Shown here: piece by piece, positions 6,155 through 36,642 of the stretch
Layout: every line of letters starts with the position of its first letter
Numbering within the stretch: position 1 is the stretch's first letter
Source: a virus
Length of the DNA stretch: 40,785 bases
IMG/VR virus record: IMGVR_UViG_3300048553_000029
Span: 1-40,785 of that record
Strand: one strand, 5' to 3'
Translations under genes and position numbers: made by a program
Notes under the pieces: generated by a model
Told to the model about the DNA's origin: nothing
The model's input: only the letters and a program-made list of their open reading frames with translations
Database searches by the model: none

Positions 6155-6472
6155 TTAAACAGTTGTCCAGGAAAGAACTTTGAAGAAATTTTCAGTCGAA
6201 AAAGATTCTTGACCGACCCACCAGCTAAGCCAGTGGGACGATCCTTTGCTTTGATTGCATTTCATACAAGCGCACACTACATTGTTTGTAATGTCGTGAC
6301 CTCCTTTTGCTTTAGGACGAACGTGATCCAGGGTTAGACAGTCTGTGGAGCCACAATAGACACACCGGTTACCCCAGTGGTCTTTGATTGCAGCACGCCA
6401 CATACGTTTCGCTTCAGCAGAAGTCATAGCTTGAAGGAAGTAAAGGTATTCGGAAGGGGCTTTGAGAGGCAT
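6155..6472 (-). CDS. HNH endonuclease
   Basis: A 105-aa protein with a complete HNH/ββα-metal motif: CVYC (C37, C40), LDHVRPKAKGGHD (H50), NN at 63-64, and CMKC (C69, C72). The cysteine pairs hold a structural zinc and the H-N-H residues hold the catalytic metal. The start is ATG 6472. It lies between TerS and TerL. Two readings fit: a homing endonuclease, or a packaging-associated HNH nuclease like those beside terminases in other tailed phages. No intron or intein was seen nearby. Confidence 0.9.
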   Translation of the reverse strand: MPLKAPSEYLYFLQAMTSAEAKRMWRAAIKDHWGNRCVYCGSTDCLTLDHVRPKAKGGHDITNNVVCACMKCNQSKGSSHWLSWWVGQESFSTENFFKVLSWTTV

Positions 6473-11617: not shown

Positions 11618-12730
11618 TTATGTACTAAACGTAACGGTTTCAGATGTTGAAGTTGTAACAGTAATGACTGACACTTTATCGTCGCCATCAGTGCTAGTGG
11701 TTTGAGTTACACCACTACTAAATGTAGCCGTATAAGTATTTGGATACCTGAGGATAACAACACCAGATCCACCAGCTCCACTTGGCTGGCTTTGAGCAGT
11801 ACCGTTAAGCCAGCTCAGACCACCGCCACCGCTACCAGTATTTGCTGTTCCGTCTTGCACGTTGCCAGGAGAACCAGCGTCACCGCCACCGCCTGAGCCA
11901 CCCGTACCAGATGTGCCGCTGTAGTAAACACCGCCACCACCGCCACCAGCTCGGGTTACTGCAGTGCCTGTAATTGAAGAAGAAATGCCGTTGCCACCGT
12001 TACCACCAACATTGGCTGCAGTAGCGTCAGTGCCTACAGAACCAGCACCGCCACCGCCGCCACAAGCGTAGTTACCTGCTGCTGAACCTTGGCCACCGTC
12101 AAAGCCTTGCCCTGAAGTTCCAGCGCCAGGAGTTCCAGTGCCGCCAGAGCCACCACCAGAACCACCTGCTAAACCTGCGGTGTTGCTACCACCACCACGG
12201 GCGCCACCACCGCCGCCAGTAGATGTAATTGTGTGAAATACAGAATTAGACCCTGAATTTCCTGAAGAAGTACCATTGTCACTTTTACTTGCGCCACCAG
12301 CACCAACGGTAACTGTGTACTGAGTGCCAGTGGTCAACACAATGCCGGTTTCTACGGCTGAAAGTCCGCCAGAAATATTGCCTGAGCCATAGCTAGTTCT
12401 ATAACCACCTGCACCACCACCAGAGCCACTACCGCCACCGCCGCCTGCAGAAGCGCCACCGCCTCCTCCGCCAATAACTAAGAAATCAATAAGAGGATTA
12501 GGTTGAGGTGTATCTCCAACATTTCGCCATTGAGGAACGAAATCAGTTGAAGACCAAAACTCCAATTGGCCAGTCGTAGTGTTAAACCGAACCTGACCAG
12601 CTGAACCACTAGCAGGACGGTCAGCAGTTGAACCCGAAGGCAGAATAATTCCAGCAGTACCGTTACCGCCTTCAGCGGGTGCATCTATTTCTGTATAACC
12701 GGATGTTGATCCGTTAATTCTAATTCCCAT
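11618..12730 (-). CDS. Glycine-rich tail adhesin, copy B (370 aa)
   Basis: An N-terminal attachment part (residues 1-85) contains the module 'RPASGSAGQVRFNTTTGQLE' with an EFWS...QWRNV ending. Residues about 85-315 are a Gly/Ser/Ala domain full of GGGGG and GGAGG motifs, resembling the polyglycine-helix receptor-binding domains of some phage adhesins. The C-terminus returns to beta structure (GVVILRYPNTYTATFSSGV). It is a clear paralogue of the 372-aa protein at 12999-14117. A receptor-binding role is inference. The start shares a base with the upstream stop (TAATG). Confidence 0.8.
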   Translation of the reverse strand: MGIRINGSTSGYTEIDAPAEGGNGTAGIILPSGSTADRPASGSAGQVRFNTTTGQLEFWSSTDFVPQWRNVGDTPQPNPLIDFLVIGGGGGGASAGGGGGSGSGGGAGGYRTSYGSGNISGGLSAVETGIVLTTGTQYTVTVGAGGASKSDNGTSSGNSGSNSVFHTITSTGGGGGARGGGSNTAGLAGGSGGGSGGTGTPGAGTSGQGFDGGQGSAAGNYACGGGGGAGSVGTDATAANVGGNGGNGISSSITGTAVTRAGGGGGGVYYSGTSGTGGSGGGGDAGSPGNVQDGTANTGSGGGGLSWLNGTAQSQPSGAGGSGVVILRYPNTYTATFSSGVTQTTSTDGDDKVSVITVTTSTSETVTFST

Positions 12731-12998: not shown

Positions 12999-14117
12999 TT
13001 ATGCGAGTGCAAAGGTTACAGTTCCAGTTCCCGCAGTACACTCATAAATAGTAGTATTGTCAGCAGGGACAGCGGTAGATGTAAAAGTCACACCAGCTGA
13101 GAATGTTGCGGTGTAAGAATCTGGAATGCGAATAATTACTACTCCGTCTGCACCAGCACCACCATCGAGTTCATCGGCTACTGAGTCATAGCCGCCTCCA
13201 CCACCACCACCTGAGCCTGGGGTTGAACCAATACGTTCTGCGTATTGTCCAGCAGCTTGCCTAAAACCACCACGACCACCAGTTCCGTTAGAGCCACCTT
13301 TACCTTGGGCTGCAACAGTAGTATTGGTGTAAGTACCGCCACCACCACCAGCGGCATAAATAACAGCAGTACCATTAATGTCATTTGACACACCAGGACC
13401 ACCATCACCACCGGTGTCGTAAGAGACAAGGGCACCACTGGCATCAACACCAACACCACCGGCACCACCACCGCCAGCGCCAGCGTAGTTGGGGTTACTT
13501 GCAGGACCGCCACCATTATTACCTTGTCCAGTAGTACCAGATCCAACTAGGCCGCCTGTTCCATAATTACCGTATCCACTAGCACCACCACCGGATCCAC
13601 CGTCTTTACCGTGGGCTTCAGCAATAGTGTAGTTAGCCATCTGGCCACCGCCGCCTCCACCACCGCCAATAGCGGTCAGGGTACCGAGAACACTATTCGC
13701 GCCATTATTACCCGCATATCGGGTGGTGCTATTTCCAACTGTCCGTGCTCCACCAGCACCAATAGTAACTGTATAAGCAGTATTCAAGCTAAAAGTTGAA
13801 GTATCGTTAGATGCCGCTAGATAACCACCGGCACCACCGCCACCGCCGCATACCCAAGAATAAGCAGTAGAACCACCAGCTCCACCTCCTCCAACAACCA
13901 AATAGCGTACAGAGAAAGCAGGCAATTCTCCTTCCTTAACTTTTCTCCATTGAGCTGGACTGCTAGTAGTTGACCAAAATTCCATTTCACCGTTGTCCGT
14001 GTTAAACCGGATTTCACCAGCATCAGCACTAGCTGGCCTGTTTGCTGTATTTCCTGAAGGAATTTGGACGGATTGAGTGCCGCCAAATTCACCTTGACCA
14101 TTAATAGTAAAAGCCAT
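12999..14117 (-). CDS. Glycine-rich tail adhesin, copy A (372 aa)
   Basis: The N-terminal part has RPASADAGEIRFNTDNGEME with an EFWS...QWRKV ending, then LPAFSVRYLVVGGGGAGG leads into about 230 residues of Gly-rich blocks. It ends GVVIIRIPDSYTATFSAGV plus a short beta tail. Domain order matches copy B exactly. The start at ATG 14117 lies two bases after the gp17-like fibre stop; an upstream ATG overlapping the fibre gene is less likely. One reading frame in the shadow is Val/Leu-rich and is an artefact of GGT/GGC-rich codons. Confidence 0.8.
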   Translation of the reverse strand: MAFTINGQGEFGGTQSVQIPSGNTANRPASADAGEIRFNTDNGEMEFWSTTSSPAQWRKVKEGELPAFSVRYLVVGGGGAGGSTAYSWVCGGGGGAGGYLAASNDTSTFSLNTAYTVTIGAGGARTVGNSTTRYAGNNGANSVLGTLTAIGGGGGGGGQMANYTIAEAHGKDGGSGGGASGYGNYGTGGLVGSGTTGQGNNGGGPASNPNYAGAGGGGAGGVGVDASGALVSYDTGGDGGPGVSNDINGTAVIYAAGGGGGTYTNTTVAAQGKGGSNGTGGRGGFRQAAGQYAERIGSTPGSGGGGGGGYDSVADELDGGAGADGVVIIRIPDSYTATFSAGVTFTSTAVPADNTTIYECTAGTGTVTFALA

Positions 14118-14119
14118 AA

Positions 14120-15439
14120 TTAAACAATCACCCAAGTTGAACCAGAAGGAACGGTGACAGTTGCACCGCTATTGATAGTCAGAGGACCAGCACTAACAAC
14201 GTTCTTACCAGTGCTAATCGTGTAGCTAGTGGTAACAGTGTTGTCATGTTCTAGAGCCCAACCATCTGTGCCACCACCAGTAGCACCACCACCAATTGCA
14301 CCCCACGCAGACCCATAGCCTTCAAAGCTAGAAGTTGTGGTGTTGTAGCGGATCATGCCTGAAGCAGGTGATCCATCACGTTGTGCAGTAGTACCAACAG
14401 GAAGCGTGGCAGAACCAGTAGTAGAAGTACGGGGAACCTTCTCAGTGTCAAGCTCAGCAATCGCTGCTTGAACGTTGGTAGCAGACACGTCACCAGTAGC
14501 GGTAGACGTGATGTTTGCTGCATCACCAGGGACGTAAGCAATAACCCAAGCAGAACCTGTGTACACCTTCATCACGTTGGATGTAGTGTTGTAGTACAGG
14601 TCACCACCAGTCAAAGGATCACCGTCGTTATCAACAGTTGGATCGCTTGCTTTGGCACCTAGATAGGTATCATCAAAGTTATCAAATGCAGCAAGTGCAG
14701 CAGCCGCAGAGGATGCAGCAGCAGTTGCACTGCCAGATGCTGCTTGTGCTGAAGCACTTGCATTACCTTCTGAAGTAGAAGCAGCAGCAGCTGAACCTTG
14801 AGCATTGGTTTCGCTAGTAGATGCATTACCTGCTGAAACTAAAGCAGCACTTGCTTGCGTAGTTGCAGTATTAGCTTGTGTGGTGGCGATAGAAGCTTGT
14901 GCGCCTGCGGTTGTCGCACTGGTACCTGCAGCAGTTTCAGACGCCAAAGCAGCCGCAGCACTTGCAGCAGCAGCTGAGGCATAACCACCAGCAAGACCAA
15001 CAGTGCTATCTACATAGGCTTTAGTCGATGCGTCAGCGTTAGCCGTGGGTGTACCAAGGTTGACGATCTTGTTGGTCTGCATGTCCAGATCACCGGACAT
15101 TGACCCTCCACTAGCATCAACACTCCGCTCTTCACGCTCTTGGGCAGAGTACACCAGTTGCAGGTTGTTGTTGTTCAGGTCCTGTGCGCGGATAGCAGAA
15201 CCCGAAACAAACGTAGCTTGAGGAGAGCTAATGTCCGTATCACGGAAGATACGAATCGTCTGACCAGAGGTAGGAAATGGAGCTACCGTAAAGCGAATCT
15301 GGGTGTCGTTGTCAAAAGAGAAGTCGGTGGTTACAACATCATCAACAGACACCTTGATGTCAGTACGCTCAAGGTATGGGAAAGTAATTGAAAAAGGGCC
15401 GGCCGTACCGTTACCCGGAATAGTAGTGTCAGTTGCCAT
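14120..15439 (-). CDS. Tail fibre, T7 gp17-like N-terminus (439 aa)
   Basis: Residues 1-130 match the T7 gp17 tail-attachment domain: GPFSITFPYLERTDIKVSVD, FPTSGQTIRIFRDTD, then AIRAQDLNNNNLQLVYSAQE. About 130-235 is a long Ala/Ser/Thr-rich coiled or collagen-like shaft (ASAAAASAAAALASETAAG type). The C-terminal third has a 'GDLYYNTTSNVMKVYTGSAW' module and a short beta end. It lacks a large receptor-binding tip, which fits a design in which the following adhesin proteins carry host recognition (inference). It binds the tail at the portal/tube junction in T7. Confidence 0.9.
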   Translation of the reverse strand: MATDTTIPGNGTAGPFSITFPYLERTDIKVSVDDVVTTDFSFDNDTQIRFTVAPFPTSGQTIRIFRDTDISSPQATFVSGSAIRAQDLNNNNLQLVYSAQEREERSVDASGGSMSGDLDMQTNKIVNLGTPTANADASTKAYVDSTVGLAGGYASAAAASAAAALASETAAGTSATTAGAQASIATTQANTATTQASAALVSAGNASTSETNAQGSAAAASTSEGNASASAQAASGSATAAASSAAAALAAFDNFDDTYLGAKASDPTVDNDGDPLTGGDLYYNTTSNVMKVYTGSAWVIAYVPGDAANITSTATGDVSATNVQAAIAELDTEKVPRTSTTGSATLPVGTTAQRDGSPASGMIRYNTTTSSFEGYGSAWGAIGGGATGGGTDGWALEHDNTVTTSYTISTGKNVVSAGPLTINSGATVTVPSGSTWVIV

Positions 15440-31002: not shown

Positions 31003-31708
31003 TATTAGAGGCTTCGAAGAACGCAGGCATACGGCTGCGCTGTGTGTCCTTTAGCCCCGGAGCCTTGCCCCGAGCATAAAGACTGTCGGACTGTTTAATC
31101 CAGAAGTCTTTGTTGAGGTATTTGTTCTCGTCCATACCAAGACTATCCATTACCCAAGCGACTGTGGCTCGGCGCAAACGATTGAGGCTTGATGTGGACT
31201 TGAGGCCCAGCTCGGAACATACCATCGTATGGATCGCAACGTGGCACTGTTCGTCTCTTGACACGTCGGCTGCCGTCGAGCGGAGGCCGATGTCTCCGTT
31301 GAATCGGAAGAAGGGGAGGATGACGAAGAAGACACTGCGTTCGAGAATAGCGGCTTTAAGAATAGGATGCTCAGGCGCATCGAGCCATGCTCTCAAAATA
31401 TGTTTGGCTTCGTCTTCATATTTTTCTTCCGCACCATGCGCCTTAATGACATAATTAAGGGCAAGGTCATGGTTCTCTTCATCCTTTTGATTGGACAAAA
31501 GAGCTTCGCGCAACCCTGGAGTGTTTGGCAGTTCGCGGTCTAATCCTTGTTGGAGAAACTCGCGTACGGGAAGTTCGAGGTGGCGGAGTCCGAGTGCTCT
31601 TTTCAGAGCATCTTCAGACCCCTCAACTACCTCCCCCTTCTGAACTGCTAAAGGCGTCCACTTGCGCTTCCGACTAATAACTTGATCGTAGGGTGATAGC
31701 TGTGTCAT
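30980..31708 (-). CDS. nrdB: Ribonucleotide reductase, class I beta-like small subunit (242 aa)
   Basis: A ferritin-like four-helix protein with carboxylate/histidine metal ligands: E77xxH80 (KDEENHD), E123 (ILERSVFF) and E153xxH156 (SRDEQCHVAIH). This is the class I reductase radical-generating subunit pattern, in a shortened protein (E. coli NrdB has 376 residues). The residue four after the first His, where E. coli has radical Tyr122, is Leu84, with a Tyr at 86. The start at 31708 overlaps the alpha stop (ATGA), so the subunits are coupled. Annotators often leave such proteins as hypothetical. Confidence 0.85.
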   Translation of the reverse strand: MTQLSPYDQVISRKRKWTPLAVQKGEVVEGSEDALKRALGLRHLELPVREFLQQGLDRELPNTPGLREALLSNQKDEENHDLALNYVIKAHGAEEKYEDEAKHILRAWLDAPEHPILKAAILERSVFFVILPFFRFNGDIGLRSTAADVSRDEQCHVAIHTMVCSELGLKSTSSLNRLRRATVAWVMDSLGMDENKYLNKDFWIKQSDSLYARGKAPGLKDTQRSRMPAFFEASNNDLPQYG

Positions 31709-33120
31709 TCTCCGCAGGGAATACAAATGTTGTCTTCTTTTAGGTTAGGGGTGGAACTGCTATCTGGATCAAGCTCTTCCTCGAACTTAAACATTTCGTG
31801 GAAGTCATCATCCAATGCGGCAAAGGCATCATCCTTTGCTTGGGTATCAGGTTGCACCTGCAGACTGTAGTAGAGACTGGTCTGTGGCGACCTCAACCAT
31901 TCTTGTAGGAAACGCTCGTCATAGGTACACACATCACTCCAAGAGTTGAAGGAGTACCCGTGGAAAAGGTTTGTCTTAGTCAGCATCGTTACGATGCCAT
32001 CGGCAACTCGCTTGTATGCTTTCCAACCTACCTCTGATGCAATCTCACAGTCGGGTGGATAGTCGAAGCTTTGAGTACCGAACGTGCCGGAGTCACGGTC
32101 AACCTGCCGAGAGATAGGAGGTGCAATCTCAGGGGTGGTGGTGAAGCCACGCAGGTCAACGTTCTGATAGCTGCAGCTGGCTGTCGGTGCAATGGCAAAG
32201 GCACGATCCATGTCCATTGCGCGAGCTTCGATAGCTGCAAGCTCAATGCCTAGCCCAATGTTAGAAGCAAGGCGATAAGCCACAGACTCATTAGGTTGGT
32301 TGTTGTTGTAAGCATCAAGTGCTTCACCAAACTCAGCGTATGTGACTTTGTTTTGTGCCAGGAAATTTGCTAGGCCAAGCATTCCAAGGCCAACCTGACG
32401 GTCAATGGTGGGGCTCAAGTATTCACCACTCTTGTCAACACCAGTGCGACCATGAAGTTCACACAGACTCCGCATCCCATCACGGAAAGCAATGGATACT
32501 TCTTCTGGCTTACAAGCCGCAAGGTTGATGTGCTGCAAGAGGCAGGTGCCACGGCTCTTGAGATACACCTCAAGGCAAACATTGCTACGGATGCGCTCAC
32601 CGTTCTGGTCATACTTGATCTTCGATAGCCAGAGATCACCCTTCTTGATGGCGTCAAGAGTGGCACGGATCAGTTCGGGGTGGGCTTCTTCAAGGAAGTT
32701 AGGGTCTACGTTGAGACACTTCTTCATCCAAGGCAGCTGATCACGGGTAGCTGTGACAAACTCAAGAGCGTCCTTGTGCCAGTAATCGAGGTGAGCCACT
32801 GTCGCGCCGTTCTTGTACACTCCACCGCGCCTTAAGGTCTGGTTAAGAGCTGAGTAGAGGTAGGCGAAAGAGACAGGACCGCTTGCCGTAAGACCCTTTC
32901 CGTTCTCAGCGCCACGGGGACGGAGATCAGAAAGATGAATAGCAACACCAGCTCCGTGGCGTAGCGCGAAAGAGGCAAAGCGCCAAGAGGCTTCGATGCC
33001 TTCGGGTCCCTCCATGCTGTCCGACACGTTAAAGATCGTGCAGCTGACTGGCAAACGGGACTCCGGGTTGTCAATCCAATTTTGAACACGGCCGGTACGA
33101 ACAATTTTTTCAGGTTTCAT
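31705..33120 (-). CDS. nrdA: Ribonucleotide reductase, compact class I alpha-like large subunit (471 aa)
   Basis: Reduces ribonucleotides to deoxyribonucleotides. Active-site elements: the redox Cys pair C27 (PVSCTIFN) and C193 (RGTCLLQHINLA), the radical motif NVCLE (N180, C182, E184), and a substrate loop IAPTASCSYQN. A Tyr-Tyr pair (LYYSLQ, 417-418) and a C-terminal CIPC (466-469) are class I features, used for radical transfer from a beta subunit and for re-reduction. There is no ATP-cone, and the protein is far shorter than the usual 700 or more residues. Cyanopodovirus reductases have been called class II, but the Tyr pair and adjacent beta gene favour class I. Confidence 0.92.
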   Translation of the reverse strand: MKPEKIVRTGRVQNWIDNPESRLPVSCTIFNVSDSMEGPEGIEASWRFASFALRHGAGVAIHLSDLRPRGAENGKGLTASGPVSFAYLYSALNQTLRRGGVYKNGATVAHLDYWHKDALEFVTATRDQLPWMKKCLNVDPNFLEEAHPELIRATLDAIKKGDLWLSKIKYDQNGERIRSNVCLEVYLKSRGTCLLQHINLAACKPEEVSIAFRDGMRSLCELHGRTGVDKSGEYLSPTIDRQVGLGMLGLANFLAQNKVTYAEFGEALDAYNNNQPNESVAYRLASNIGLGIELAAIEARAMDMDRAFAIAPTASCSYQNVDLRGFTTTPEIAPPISRQVDRDSGTFGTQSFDYPPDCEIASEVGWKAYKRVADGIVTMLTKTNLFHGYSFNSWSDVCTYDERFLQEWLRSPQTSLYYSLQVQPDTQAKDDAFAALDDDFHEMFKFEEELDPDSSSTPNLKEDNICIPCGE

Positions 33121-33508
33121 CTGCAACAAGGTCAGTGAGAACAGGTGGTTGATAGTTCTTCCCCTTCAGTATCTTACCATCGTCACGGCGTAGGGGCTTG
33201 CCATCAACGAGTTTGCTCATATTTGATTCATAAACACGGCGCATGGCTGTGTCCAAATCCCAACCGCGAGCAGCGGCATATTGAAAACAGACGAACACCA
33301 AGTCAGCCAGCTCTTTCAGCTGGTGTTCCTTGTTCTCTAAACGAGAGATGTTGTTGTCTGAAAACTCAAGATCAAATGCTTCATCAAATTCGTTGAGCTC
33401 TTCAACGATTAGACGATGCTGCATTTCATGGACGCATTCGTCCTGGGTGTTGACCAGTTGACCCATAGCCACTCGAAATTCGATGGCCTGTTGCATTAGC
33501 GATGTCAT
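33110..33508 (-). CDS. MazG-like all-alpha NTP pyrophosphohydrolase (132 aa)
   Basis: Start at ATG 33508 overlaps the upstream stop (ATGA). Motifs of the all-alpha NTP-PPase superfamily are present: RLIVEELNEFDEAFD (ExxE) and KELADLVFVCFQYAA (ExxD), then the C-terminal block SKLVDGKPLRRDDGKILKG seen in phosphoribosyl-ATP-pyrophosphatase-like phage proteins. Such enzymes hydrolyse nucleoside triphosphates and in cyanophages are proposed to adjust nucleotide pools or alarmone signals; the substrate here is unknown. It overlaps the reductase alpha start by 11 bases. Confidence 0.85.
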   Translation of the reverse strand: MTSLMQQAIEFRVAMGQLVNTQDECVHEMQHRLIVEELNEFDEAFDLEFSDNNISRLENKEHQLKELADLVFVCFQYAAARGWDLDTAMRRVYESNMSKLVDGKPLRRDDGKILKGKNYQPPVLTDLVADET

Positions 33509-33909
33509 TGTTGGTGCAGTTGCTGGAGCTTGCGGTTGACATAAGCATGGACCTTTAGCCAATCATCGAGTTCAGATTCCCCCGACTTGTGGCCAGCACG
33601 ACAAATGTATTTTACACAGTTGCCTGCCAAATAGTCAAGCTCTTGATCGACAATGAAATCCCAGATCTCAATCGTCCCCCTCTTGTAGTGGGCCGGATTG
33701 CTTTTGGAAGTTTCCTTTGAAGAGCTCTCGGTAGGCTGGGTTTCTTCTGATGGCGAAGAGTTCTGCTTCCCGTAGAACACGTCCCAGGGGTCCTGGCTTT
33801 CTTGATAGTAGGTCAAAGTAGATTCGTAATCGAAAAAGGATTCTATGTCTTCGTAGTTCAACTTGGACAAGAAGTTCCTGGAGGGCGACTTGAGCATAGA
33901 AGAACACAC
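33505..33909 (-). CDS. DUF3310-domain protein (134 aa)
   Basis: The C-terminal 60 residues (KRGTIEIWDFIVDQELDYLA, then GNCVKYICRAGHKSGESELD and a DWLKVHAYVNRKL helix) match the DUF3310 domain also found in T7 gp1.7, a nucleotide kinase. The N-terminal 70 residues are acidic and Ser-rich and probably disordered. The first codon is GTG; ATG 33897 (130 aa) is an alternative. It lies in the nucleotide cluster, coupled to the MazG-like gene by ATGA. A nucleotide-metabolism role is inferred. Confidence 0.8.
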   Translation of the reverse strand: MCSSMLKSPSRNFLSKLNYEDIESFFDYESTLTYYQESQDPWDVFYGKQNSSPSEETQPTESSSKETSKSNPAHYKRGTIEIWDFIVDQELDYLAGNCVKYICRAGHKSGESELDDWLKVHAYVNRKLQQLHQQ

Positions 33910-33982
33910 GAGGATCTACAACGTAGATAAAGAAGGCAATACCTATGCAGCTCCAAACTCCTATGGCGGTGTAGTTGGCCAT
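33668..33982 (-). CDS. Possible overlapping membrane protein (104 aa), uncertain
   Basis: A frame starting inside the end of nblA begins MANYTAIGVWSCIGIAFFIY, with one strong transmembrane segment, and continues through the start of the DUF3310 gene in another frame. About 50 bases (33910-33960) belong to it alone. After residue 45 the composition becomes Arg/Leu-rich, as expected for a shadow of the other frame. The gap between nblA and the DUF3310 gene makes a short membrane protein possible, but there is no ribosome site and the C-terminal part is doubtful. Confidence 0.3.
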   Translation of the reverse strand: MANYTAIGVWSCIGIAFFIYVVDPRVFFYAQVALQELLVQVELRRHRILFRLRIYFDLLSRKPGPLGRVLREAELFAIRRNPAYRELFKGNFQKQSGPLQEGDD

Positions 33983-34158
33983 TGTTTTATCAGGTTAGAA
34001 AGATTATTAGACAGAATAAAATTCTGCTTTTGCAACTGCATGTATAGATCAAGCAGATCTTGCTTGTCTATTTGTGTTGCGAGATCTTCTATCCTTCGGA
34101 GTTTGAACTGTTGCTCCAGGGTCAGCTCGACAACTGGGGGTGGAGGGAAGGGTTCCAT
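33961..34158 (-). CDS. nblA: NblA-like phycobilisome degradation protein (65 aa)
   Basis: NblA is a small two-helix adaptor that binds phycobiliproteins and hands them to the Clp protease during bleaching. This 65-aa protein has the family signature ELTLEQQFKL (residues 11-20), then IDKQDLLDLYMQLQKQNFIL and a final NLIKQW, which line up with cyanobacterial NblA ('LSxEQQFxL', 'xRxxxxELxxExxRQ', 'xxLIxQ'). Length and spacing fit. The N-terminus has four consecutive prolines. It overlaps the exonuclease end by 37 bases and precedes nucleotide genes. Phage-coded nblA is known from Microcystis phages and reported from marine cyanophage sequence. Confidence 0.85.
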   Translation of the reverse strand: MEPFPPPPVVELTLEQQFKLRRIEDLATQIDKQDLLDLYMQLQKQNFILSNNLSNLIKQWPTTPP

Positions 34159-34886
34159 AGGATAGGTTCTTTGGTTGTTGAGTTGTACTCGCCTGGTCGC
34201 AGAATCCTTGCCAGCCTTGCGTTACGCAAAGCATCATCGATAGTCAACCCCGCCTTTTCATAAGACGTTACGATTGCTTCCCACGGATCTTCTGCCTTAG
34301 CCAAGATTTTTTCTGCGCCCTTGCTACCAACGCCAGGTACGCCTTTGTATCCATCGACTGGATCACCGGTAAGGCATTGAGTCCAGAACCAGTAATCAGC
34401 CTCTTCAGTAGTGACCTGTAATAATTCGTTGCCATTGAATAAGTTGCAAGATATTTGCTTCAGGTCTTTGTCAGGAGATACAAGGATAAAATCGCTAGGA
34501 TCACAATGGCATTCCAGACCCAATGCGTCATCAGCTTCGAGGTTTTCATAACGAATAGTTTTGTAATTGGCATTGCACCATTCCAAAAGCCGCTTGTAAC
34601 CTACTGGTTTTCGCTTGGTGCGCTTGCCTTTGTATTCAGGGTCGATGGTCTTTCTGAAGTTCTTACTGCTAGAGAAGAACAACAGCACACGTTCTGTGTT
34701 AAATCTTTTCTTGAGACAATCAATGTCATAGTTAAATGATCTGATCACCTCTTTGAAATTAGAAGCGATGGTTACAAGATCATCGCCCCAATCTAGTTCT
34801 GTCTCGTTTACCTGGCAACTACGGTAAGCATAGAAGTCTGCGTCAATCCGCAGCTCCGGCTCAGTGACAGTCGGCCCAGGTCGCAC
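34122..34886 (-). CDS. 5'-3' exonuclease, T7 gp6-like (254 aa)
   Basis: A FEN-family nuclease that removes RNA primers and degrades DNA. Landmarks: LRIDADFYAYRSCQ (first metal Asp), FRKTIDPEYKGKRTKRKPVG, RYENLEADDALG, FILVSPDKDLKQI and GDPVDGYKGVPGVGSKGAEK, the helix-hairpin region, ending ILRPGEYNSTTKEPILWNP as in T7 gp6. No ATG lies close before the domain. GTG 34886, with GGAAG nine bases upstream, is preferred. ATG 34976 would add a Ser/Lys/Arg-rich tail that looks like a shadow of the polymerase C-terminus. Confidence 0.88.
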   Translation of the reverse strand: MRPGPTVTEPELRIDADFYAYRSCQVNETELDWGDDLVTIASNFKEVIRSFNYDIDCLKKRFNTERVLLFFSSSKNFRKTIDPEYKGKRTKRKPVGYKRLLEWCNANYKTIRYENLEADDALGLECHCDPSDFILVSPDKDLKQISCNLFNGNELLQVTTEEADYWFWTQCLTGDPVDGYKGVPGVGSKGAEKILAKAEDPWEAIVTSYEKAGLTIDDALRNARLARILRPGEYNSTTKEPILWNPSLHPQLSS

Positions 34887-36642
34887 CGTCTTTTGCTTCC
34901 GCTGCGAGCGGGACTTTGAGCCCGAGTTGCTCGCCCGCTTGGACGATTGACCATTCGAGTTGGAACTTGGCATCATTCAGAATGTGTGGTGCTACGGATA
35001 GCTGGATTTCGTCGTGGATCCATCCAAGCCATTGGAAGTCGTCGCCCCATTTATACCCCAGTTCAATGAACTGTGCAAAGGCGATGTTGTTCCACAGCTT
35101 ACAGCAGATGGCTCCAGCACTTTGGAGTAAGTAGTTGGTAGCTGCGTGTCGCTTTCCTTGTAAACGTATTGGTCTGCCATCGAGAGCGACCAACACGTCA
35201 GAATCAGCCCGACGGTTGATATGCGCGAGAAGTGGTTCCAACCCAGGAATAGCCGCCAAAAATTTTTCCCGGATTTCTTTGCCGAGTTTTCTGGCATGGA
35301 CATCATCTAAGGTGTTGTCAAGGGACAGGGCTAACTTTTTATCGGAAGCCCCGTAGATAAACCCATAAGTAAGGGTCTTCACTTCTTTCCTTGTACAACC
35401 CACACGGTCTGCATTCTGTTGATGGATGTCTCCGTTGATTACAACGTCAGCGAAAGCACCATTATCGAAATAAGACAAATAATGCCCAAGCATCCTAAGC
35501 TCCAAGCCGGAAGCATCTGCACCCAACTGGATCCGATCATGACCAGGATTAAATAGTTCGCGGCAACGAGGATCCGAACTCGTCTGGCCCAGATTTGGTC
35601 GGCTGTGCGCGTTTCTCCCTGTGTTCGTAGCCAGTTGGCAGGTGTGGTGAATCCTTCCCTCCTTGGTGACCATCTTGAGCCAGGCGTTTGTGCCGTCGCT
35701 GAGTTGTCCAAGGGCTTTCTGAAGTTCCAGAATCCGTGCGAAGGTTCTAGCTTCTTCAGTGTCGATGGCTTTAAGTACTCCTTCATCGATCTTCGGGTTC
35801 CCGGTATCTGTGAACTGTTCTGGTTTCCAACCACGCCAGGTAGCAAAAGCAAAAGCAATGTGCTGCCTGCTGGTGGGGTTGAACTCCTTCAGCTTAGTAA
35901 ATTCAGCACCCTCAATGTAGCCCTTTGTCTTGTTGTTGCGCTTGGGGGTCATACTCCCACCGTCCACATACGGGAACGTCTCTCGCATGTGGTCAGCAAG
36001 TTGATCCATCTCTGTTCGGAGAGTGGATTCAAGCTTCTGTGCTTTCTCAACATTAAAGGGCCAGCCAGACCACTCTTGTAGAGACATGATTTTTGCAGTC
36101 TCATGCTCGATGTGGATGGCGCAGTCGTACAGGCGGATCTCCTTGTAGAAGGTCTGCAGCAGCGACTCACAAACATGCACGTCCTGTTCGCAATAGTCTT
36201 CCATCTCAACGGACCACTCAGACCAATCGGTTGACTTACCGAACTGTCCCTTGTAGTTGCCGAGACGATAGCCCCATGCTTCTAGACTGTGCCTGCCATA
36301 CAGTTGACCAGCCATGCCAGGTGGCCGCTTCCTGATGTCCTCTGAGAGGATATTGGTGCGGAACATCCGTGACAGGATGAGGGTGTCAAATGTCTTTCCT
36401 GAGTACTCAAAGAAAGGAAACAAGTGCTTGATCACTGGGAGGTCAAACCCCAGGATGTTGTGGCCAACCAACACATCAGCCTCAGCCAATAGGTTGATGC
36501 CTGTGGTGATTGATTCTGTGTTACCAACGTCGTTGTACCTGTTCACCTGGCCGGTTTCGAGGTCCTTGGTAACAATGCAGTGGATACAGCTCAAGCCTTT
36601 ACGCGGAAGGCCGTCTGTTTCAATGTCGAACAGTAGCTTCAT
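34861..36642 (-). CDS. Family A DNA polymerase, T7 gp5-like (593 aa)
   Basis: The replicative polymerase with proofreading. Exonuclease motifs: FDIETDGL (D6, E8), LVGHNILGFDLPVI and YCEQDVHVCES. Polymerase motifs: A, LGADASGLELRMLGHY; B, RKEVKTLTYGFIYGAS; C, WLGWIHDEIQLSV. It is about 110 residues shorter than T7 gp5. Between FPYVDGG and FNPTSRQ only some 30 residues occur where T7 has the thioredoxin-binding loop. The start overlaps the zinc-ribbon stop (ATGA). Confidence 0.96.
   Translation of the reverse strand: MKLLFDIETDGLPRKGLSCIHCIVTKDLETGQVNRYNDVGNTESITTGINLLAEADVLVGHNILGFDLPVIKHLFPFFEYSGKTFDTLILSRMFRTNILSEDIRKRPPGMAGQLYGRHSLEAWGYRLGNYKGQFGKSTDWSEWSVEMEDYCEQDVHVCESLLQTFYKEIRLYDCAIHIEHETAKIMSLQEWSGWPFNVEKAQKLESTLRTEMDQLADHMRETFPYVDGGSMTPKRNNKTKGYIEGAEFTKLKEFNPTSRQHIAFAFATWRGWKPEQFTDTGNPKIDEGVLKAIDTEEARTFARILELQKALGQLSDGTNAWLKMVTKEGRIHHTCQLATNTGRNAHSRPNLGQTSSDPRCRELFNPGHDRIQLGADASGLELRMLGHYLSYFDNGAFADVVINGDIHQQNADRVGCTRKEVKTLTYGFIYGASDKKLALSLDNTLDDVHARKLGKEIREKFLAAIPGLEPLLAHINRRADSDVLVALDGRPIRLQGKRHAATNYLLQSAGAICCKLWNNIAFAQFIELGYKWGDDFQWLGWIHDEIQLSVAPHILNDAKFQLEWSIVQAGEQLGLKVPLAAEAKDGATWADCH

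Follow-up and report, generated by a model that had tools for sequence, protein, structure and literature searches.

Cyanobacterial NblA, the dimer of which is a four-helix bundle, binds phycobiliproteins and ClpC (PMC7966870). In the freshwater cyanophage Ma-LMM01, nblA is transcribed early, together with nrdA (PMC4103541). For marine phages, nblA was predicted in 14 cyanopodovirus strains by Nadel et al., 2019, and an nblA from marine viral metagenomes led to loss of phycobilin when expressed in S. elongatus PCC 7942 (both as given in PMC9602691); Nadel et al., 2025 (Nature) is cited for NblA being encoded by many oceanic cyanophages (PMC12892361). The presence and general effect of nblA in T7-like cyanophages are already known, and the gene described here is in itself an ordinary one. 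The 2025 study is also said to include removal of the gene from a T7-like cyanophage, and nblA is reportedly of high prevalence among such phages.

The stretch of DNA analysed here in its entirety, referred to below as the window, is a virus record of 40,785 bases with its T7-like genes on the minus strand. By its profile matches it is a T7-like cyanophage (Autographiviridae-type), encoding a single-subunit RNA polymerase (RNA_pol, 2.8e-46), a primase/helicase (Helic-prim_T7_N, 5.2e-6), a head-tail connector (Head-tail_con, 7.6e-75) and endonuclease I (Phage_endo_I, 2.1e-38), along with a family A DNA polymerase, an exonuclease and a terminase. No phage matched the right half of the window in a Megablast search, so the species has no close isolate. 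The record, a fragment of 40.8 kb, gave no match to psbA (PF00124) or to hli (PF00504). The G+C content of the window is 48%; that of the P-SSP7 and P-GSP1 loci is 40% and 41%, and that of several Synechococcus-phage loci 50-56%. Two adjacent glycine-rich proteins at 11618-12730 and 12999-14135, both matching phrog_2295, have the look of tandem paralogues in the tail-fibre region, and a ThyX thymidylate synthase and an HNH endonuclease, at 1935-2630 and 6155-6472, lie among or past the late genes. The region around nblA is arranged as follows:

31705-33129, minus strand: ribonucleotide reductase, large-subunit type (Ribonuc_red_lgC, 5.5e-22; phrog_367, 6.2e-45)
33110-33562, minus strand: MazG-like nucleotide pyrophosphohydrolase, start uncertain (phrog_671, E = 4.5e-31)
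33505-33909, minus strand: DUF3310 protein, nucleotide kinase-like in PHROGs, start uncertain (PF11753, E = 5.9e-11; phrog_236)
33668-33982, minus strand: 104-aa putative membrane-anchored protein (homologues in relatives; hydrophobic N-terminal stretch)
33961-34158, minus strand: nblA, NblA-family phycobilisome proteolysis adaptor, 65 aa (PF04485, PDB matches, two-helix model, conserved locus)
34122-34976, minus strand: T7-like 5'-3' exonuclease (phrog_107, E = 1.2e-59; Pfam 5_3_exonuc_N)
34861-36642, minus strand: family A DNA polymerase, one intact 593-aa ORF (DNA_pol_A, 2e-30)

The exonuclease gene and nblA share 37 nt, at the 3' end of the former and the start of the latter, and the end of nblA is overlapped by 22 nt by the 104-aa ORF. 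The latter also shares about 240 nt, in a different frame, with the DUF3310 ORF, the start of which is uncertain.

The 65-aa product of 33961-34158 is MEPFPPPPVVELTLEQQFKLRRIEDLATQIDKQDLLDLYMQLQKQNFILSNNLSNLIKQWPTTPP; its frame is open on the minus strand, while the plus-strand reading of the same positions contains a stop. A sequence-only reading of this DNA had taken the protein for NblA by its length and the signature TLEQQFKL, and the identification is borne out. TLEQQFKL occupies residues 13-20, the length agrees with the 60-65 aa or so of the family, and the N-terminal L-x-x-EQ-x-F motif is present (ELTLEQQF, residues 11-18). The profile search proposed in that reading gave a significant match to Pfam NblA (PF04485; E = 6e-8; 33.5 bits, the curated cut-off being 25), which spans residues 11-59 of the protein and positions 1-49 of the 50 in the profile, and which is the sole NblA match when the whole record is searched. 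Using the single sequence as query, four PDB entries were matched up to E = 1, all of them NblA (3cs5 at 2e-5, with 2q8v, 2qdo and 1ojh); a profile built from 29 phage homologues recovered these four entries again (1e-7 to 8e-5) and added one designed protein at an insignificant E = 0.3. The structure prediction likewise gave a two-helix protein: in the AlphaFold2 model, for which the alignment consisted of the window and IMG/VR loci only, helices at 14-27 and 32-59 are separated by a short loop (mean pLDDT 85.7). A Foldseek search of the PDB with this model returned no matches, a result that is uninformative for so short a protein.

Q16 is invariant in the 29 phage homologues, L12, T13 and E15 are conserved in at least 90% of them, and 23 of the 29 match Pfam NblA at E <= 0.01. 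When aligned through 1ojh, L56 and K58 of the window protein fall at places equivalent to L51 and K53 of Anabaena NblA, which we take to be the C-terminal phycobiliprotein-binding residues, and both are conserved in the phage homologues. A protein identical to that of the window is encoded in two further contigs. Across the phage nblA relatives the median dN/dS is 0.147 (codon-level, over 245 non-independent pairs), so the ORF belongs to a family that is a real, selected gene; by this codon-level measure the family is under purifying selection and a chance ORF is excluded. The claim that a T7-like phage here encodes an NblA homologue is thus upheld as well.

Where the sequence-only reading went astray was in regarding as unusual a T7-like phage with nblA placed between exonuclease and nucleotide-synthesis genes. 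The gene had already been published for 14 cyanopodovirus strains, a homologue is present in 37 phage records, all of cyanophages or uncultured marine phages, and the order exonuclease-nblA-DUF3310-MazG-ribonucleotide reductase is common to the window and to T7-like cyanophage isolates. Among the isolates inspected, the same nblA locus is found in S-TIP37, KBS-P-1A, S-CBP1, S-CBP3, S-CBP4, S-B28, P-SSP7, NATL1A-7 and S-SRP01; in T7-like isolates the gene is mostly unannotated or termed "hypothetical". Judged by gene order, the exonuclease/DUF3310 placement is the standard T7-like cyanophage nblA locus. In S-RIP1 (L055, 4884-5293) homology to nblA extends across two frames, suggesting a frameshift that is either real or a sequencing error.

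The DNA polymerase of the window, at 593 aa, is encoded in one frame, whereas among the other T7-like cyanophages with nblA it is almost always two-frame or split. The isolates nearest to it by this protein are Syn5, P60, S-CBP42, S-CBP2, SS120-1 and S-TIP28 (the best at about 53% identity), and nblA was not detected in these six. An uncultured lineage (L138-L212 and L058-L062) has polymerases 71-77% identical to that of the window, and the phage collection holds no isolate that close. A tblastn search of IMG/VR with the window polymerase gave 461 confirmed stretches, of which the best 80 were kept. On a polymerase tree of 109 rows, nblA is present in 7 of the 47 single-ORF rows and in 60 of the 62 two-frame rows, the latter figure being inflated since many of those contigs had been fetched by nblA itself. 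The fair sample is that of relatives fetched by polymerase alone, in which 68 loci contain the exonuclease and continue for 400 bases or more beyond it. Four of these carry nblA, two being from the window's own population and two being L157 and L158. Directly after the exonuclease, 64 of the loci have just a putative membrane protein of about 100 aa, L157 and L158 have nblA alone, and the two from the window's population have both; the approximately 100-aa protein is thus found in 66 of the 68, and no locus is without both genes. nblA is rare in the uncultured single-polymerase lineage to which the window belongs, a modest new point that depends on the IMG/VR sample. This lineage offers a natural comparison for the worth of nblA to a phage, with close relatives that have it, that are without it, or that have another gene in its slot.

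For the 104-aa protein, 36 distinct homologues were found among the matches listed, and there was no Pfam, PDB or phage-isolate match. Its most hydrophobic 19-residue stretch starts at residue 4, and the family as a whole (about 90-104 aa; for example L140, 6488-6793) combines a hydrophobic segment in the N-terminal part with a C-terminal block, G[PA][VL]GR...NP.Y..FF, that is conserved; the structure model of the 104-aa protein is helical, at low confidence. The 101-aa gene of L140 overlaps the exonuclease gene, as nblA does in the window. It would be a rather far-fetched reading that these proteins are substitutes for or partners of NblA, forming a second undescribed phage factor that acts on the host photosynthetic apparatus; if this were true, the window phage, carrying both genes, would be an intermediate between the nblA state and the state with the approximately 100-aa protein.

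The nblA gene looks like an old phage gene, unevenly retained or lost, rather than a fresh capture from a host. In the NblA tree the T7-like phage NblAs lie apart from the cyanobacterial ones (support 96/90). The alternative that survives best, though we judge it unlikely, is a recent capture of the gene, in which recombination at the exonuclease brought it into an nblA-less genome from either a host or a split-polymerase phage. It would account for the presence of nblA in only two populations among the 68 sampled loci, and for the DNA alignment of the window to its nearest nblA-less relative, L140, which ends at the nblA start codon. However, the slot that holds nblA is identical in both polymerase clades, and the nearest polymerase relative with nblA, L157, is without the 104-aa gene, so nblA was not simply inserted into the majority arrangement. 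Together with the NblAs of L016 and L157/L158, that of the window also branches close to the base of the phage NblAs, outside the host and split-clade groups, a weakly supported position in a tree of 58 alignment columns, which cannot decide between vertical descent and exchange among phages. The NblAs of single-polymerase phages as one clade are neither rejected nor supported (p-AU 0.21), and the distribution of nblA on the tree requires at least four changes, with gain and loss indistinguishable. As to a host source, a single genome among 151 sampled picocyanobacteria exceeds the NblA cut-off, its match (L293) aligning poorly with phage NblA, and on this sample a host origin of the gene was rejected. 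On the preferred reading of an old phage gene, nblA would have been lost several times, being retained in the window's population and missing from most of the sister lineage, and the approximately 100-aa gene would have arrived beside it in the window's lineage before most members lost nblA.

Several other sequences with NblA-like products were seen. L294 encodes a divergent protein resembling NblA that scores under the cut-off; it may be the product of the divergent nblA-like gene noted in published work. In L046, L047 and L048 (two Prochlorococcus genomes and one Flavobacteriales MAG) nblA adjoins a two-frame T7-like DNA polymerase; with the split polymerase beside nblA, these were rejected as host genes and taken as phage contigs in host assemblies. 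The divergent NblAs of L028-L032, 47% identical to that of the window, are nearer to cyanobacterial NblAs in the tree (on a long branch), and the L032 contig, at 125,842 bp, is too long for a T7-like phage.

Taken as a whole, the ORF is very probably a working nblA of the kind found in T7-like cyanophages, one that initiates phycobilisome degradation and has long resided at this locus in marine members of that group. Phycobilisome breakdown through Clp, as first proposed, is its likely function by family. The gene is probably translated together with the exonuclease, within a block for replication and nucleotide metabolism. Its product would dimerise as two-helix hairpins that bind to ClpC, a chaperone, and to the phycobiliproteins of the host; phycobilisomes would then begin to be degraded in the infected cell, so that less light would be harvested and amino acids would be released. 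The position of nblA between replication and nucleotide genes would fit an early timing similar to that in Ma-LMM01. It is plausible that antenna breakdown coincides with DNA synthesis and that it releases amino acids; the phage might profit from these, from reduced light damage and from a faster infection.

It is improbable, though conceivable, that the protein is instead an NblA-family general Clp adaptor, with the main job of directing ClpC at other proteins, of the host or of the phage, and not of phycobilisome breakdown. What speaks for this is the presence of same-locus homologues in the Prochlorococcus-infecting phages P-SSP7, P-GSP1 (host MED4), P-SSP3 (MIT9312) and NATL1A-7, the hosts of which have chlorophyll-binding antennae in place of phycobilisomes (PMC7439483). 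Since such phages carry the homologue too, it is unsafe to deduce from nblA, as the earlier reading did, that the host has phycobilisomes. Several phage homologues, including that of P-SSP7, miss the Pfam NblA cut-off, and because some of these belong to Prochlorococcus-infecting phages the NblA family may also act on other substrates. The window protein, however, scores best of the members scanned with NblA models, which derive from phycobilisome-bearing cyanobacteria, and the lowest scores are those of the Prochlorococcus-phage versions, which is what one would expect had only those drifted in function; the nblA from marine viral metagenomes, moreover, does cause phycobilin loss (PMC9602691). 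With the Prochlorococcus-phage NblAs below the Pfam cut-off and that of the window above it, a phycobilisome-bearing host is still likely for the window phage. That the ORF is non-functional, either a chance frame or a decaying remnant, is scarcely credible, for although it is short, overlaps its neighbours, goes unannotated or "hypothetical" in most isolates and appears frameshifted in S-RIP1, it has a significant family match, an intact frame, a conserved locus, an identical protein in two further contigs and strong purifying selection across its relatives.

Cyanobacterial NblAs (PF04485; 3cs5, 2q8v, 2qdo, 1ojh) are like the window protein in length, in the L-[ST]-[LVF]-EQ-[QE]-F motif, in two-helix architecture and, by alignment, in the C-terminal L..K motif; unlike them, the phage NblAs are rich in proline at the N-terminus, have a conserved Trp close to the C-terminus, and form the separate tree group mentioned above. 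The NblAs of the freshwater cyanophages Ma-LMM01, MaMV-DC and PaV-LD belong to the same family, with published phycobilin loss upon expression, but freshwater phage and marine cyanopodovirus nblA fall in separate clusters (PMC9602691), and the context in Ma-LMM01, where nblA overlaps nrdA, differs from that in the window (PMC4103541). The NblAs of T7-like marine cyanophages (such as S-TIP37, S-RIP2/KBS-P-1A and S-CBP4; phrog_27006) are 47-60% identical to that of the window and share its PPPP-x-ELTxEQ N-terminus and its locus; the window phage differs from these phages in its single-ORF DNA polymerase, in being without detected psbA or hli, and in the 104-aa gene that follows nblA. Indeed, the usual carriers of nblA are split-polymerase, psbA-carrying T7-like cyanophages, and the window has neither trait, its polymerase being intact and psbA and hli not having been found in the fragment. 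The group of Syn5, P60, S-TIP28, S-CBP2 and SS120-1, in contrast, has a single-ORF polymerase like that of the window, with 50-53% identity to it, but is without detectable nblA. With a record in which no psbA or hli was found, the window adds nblA to a large uncultured lineage of T7-like cyanophages in which the gene is rare.
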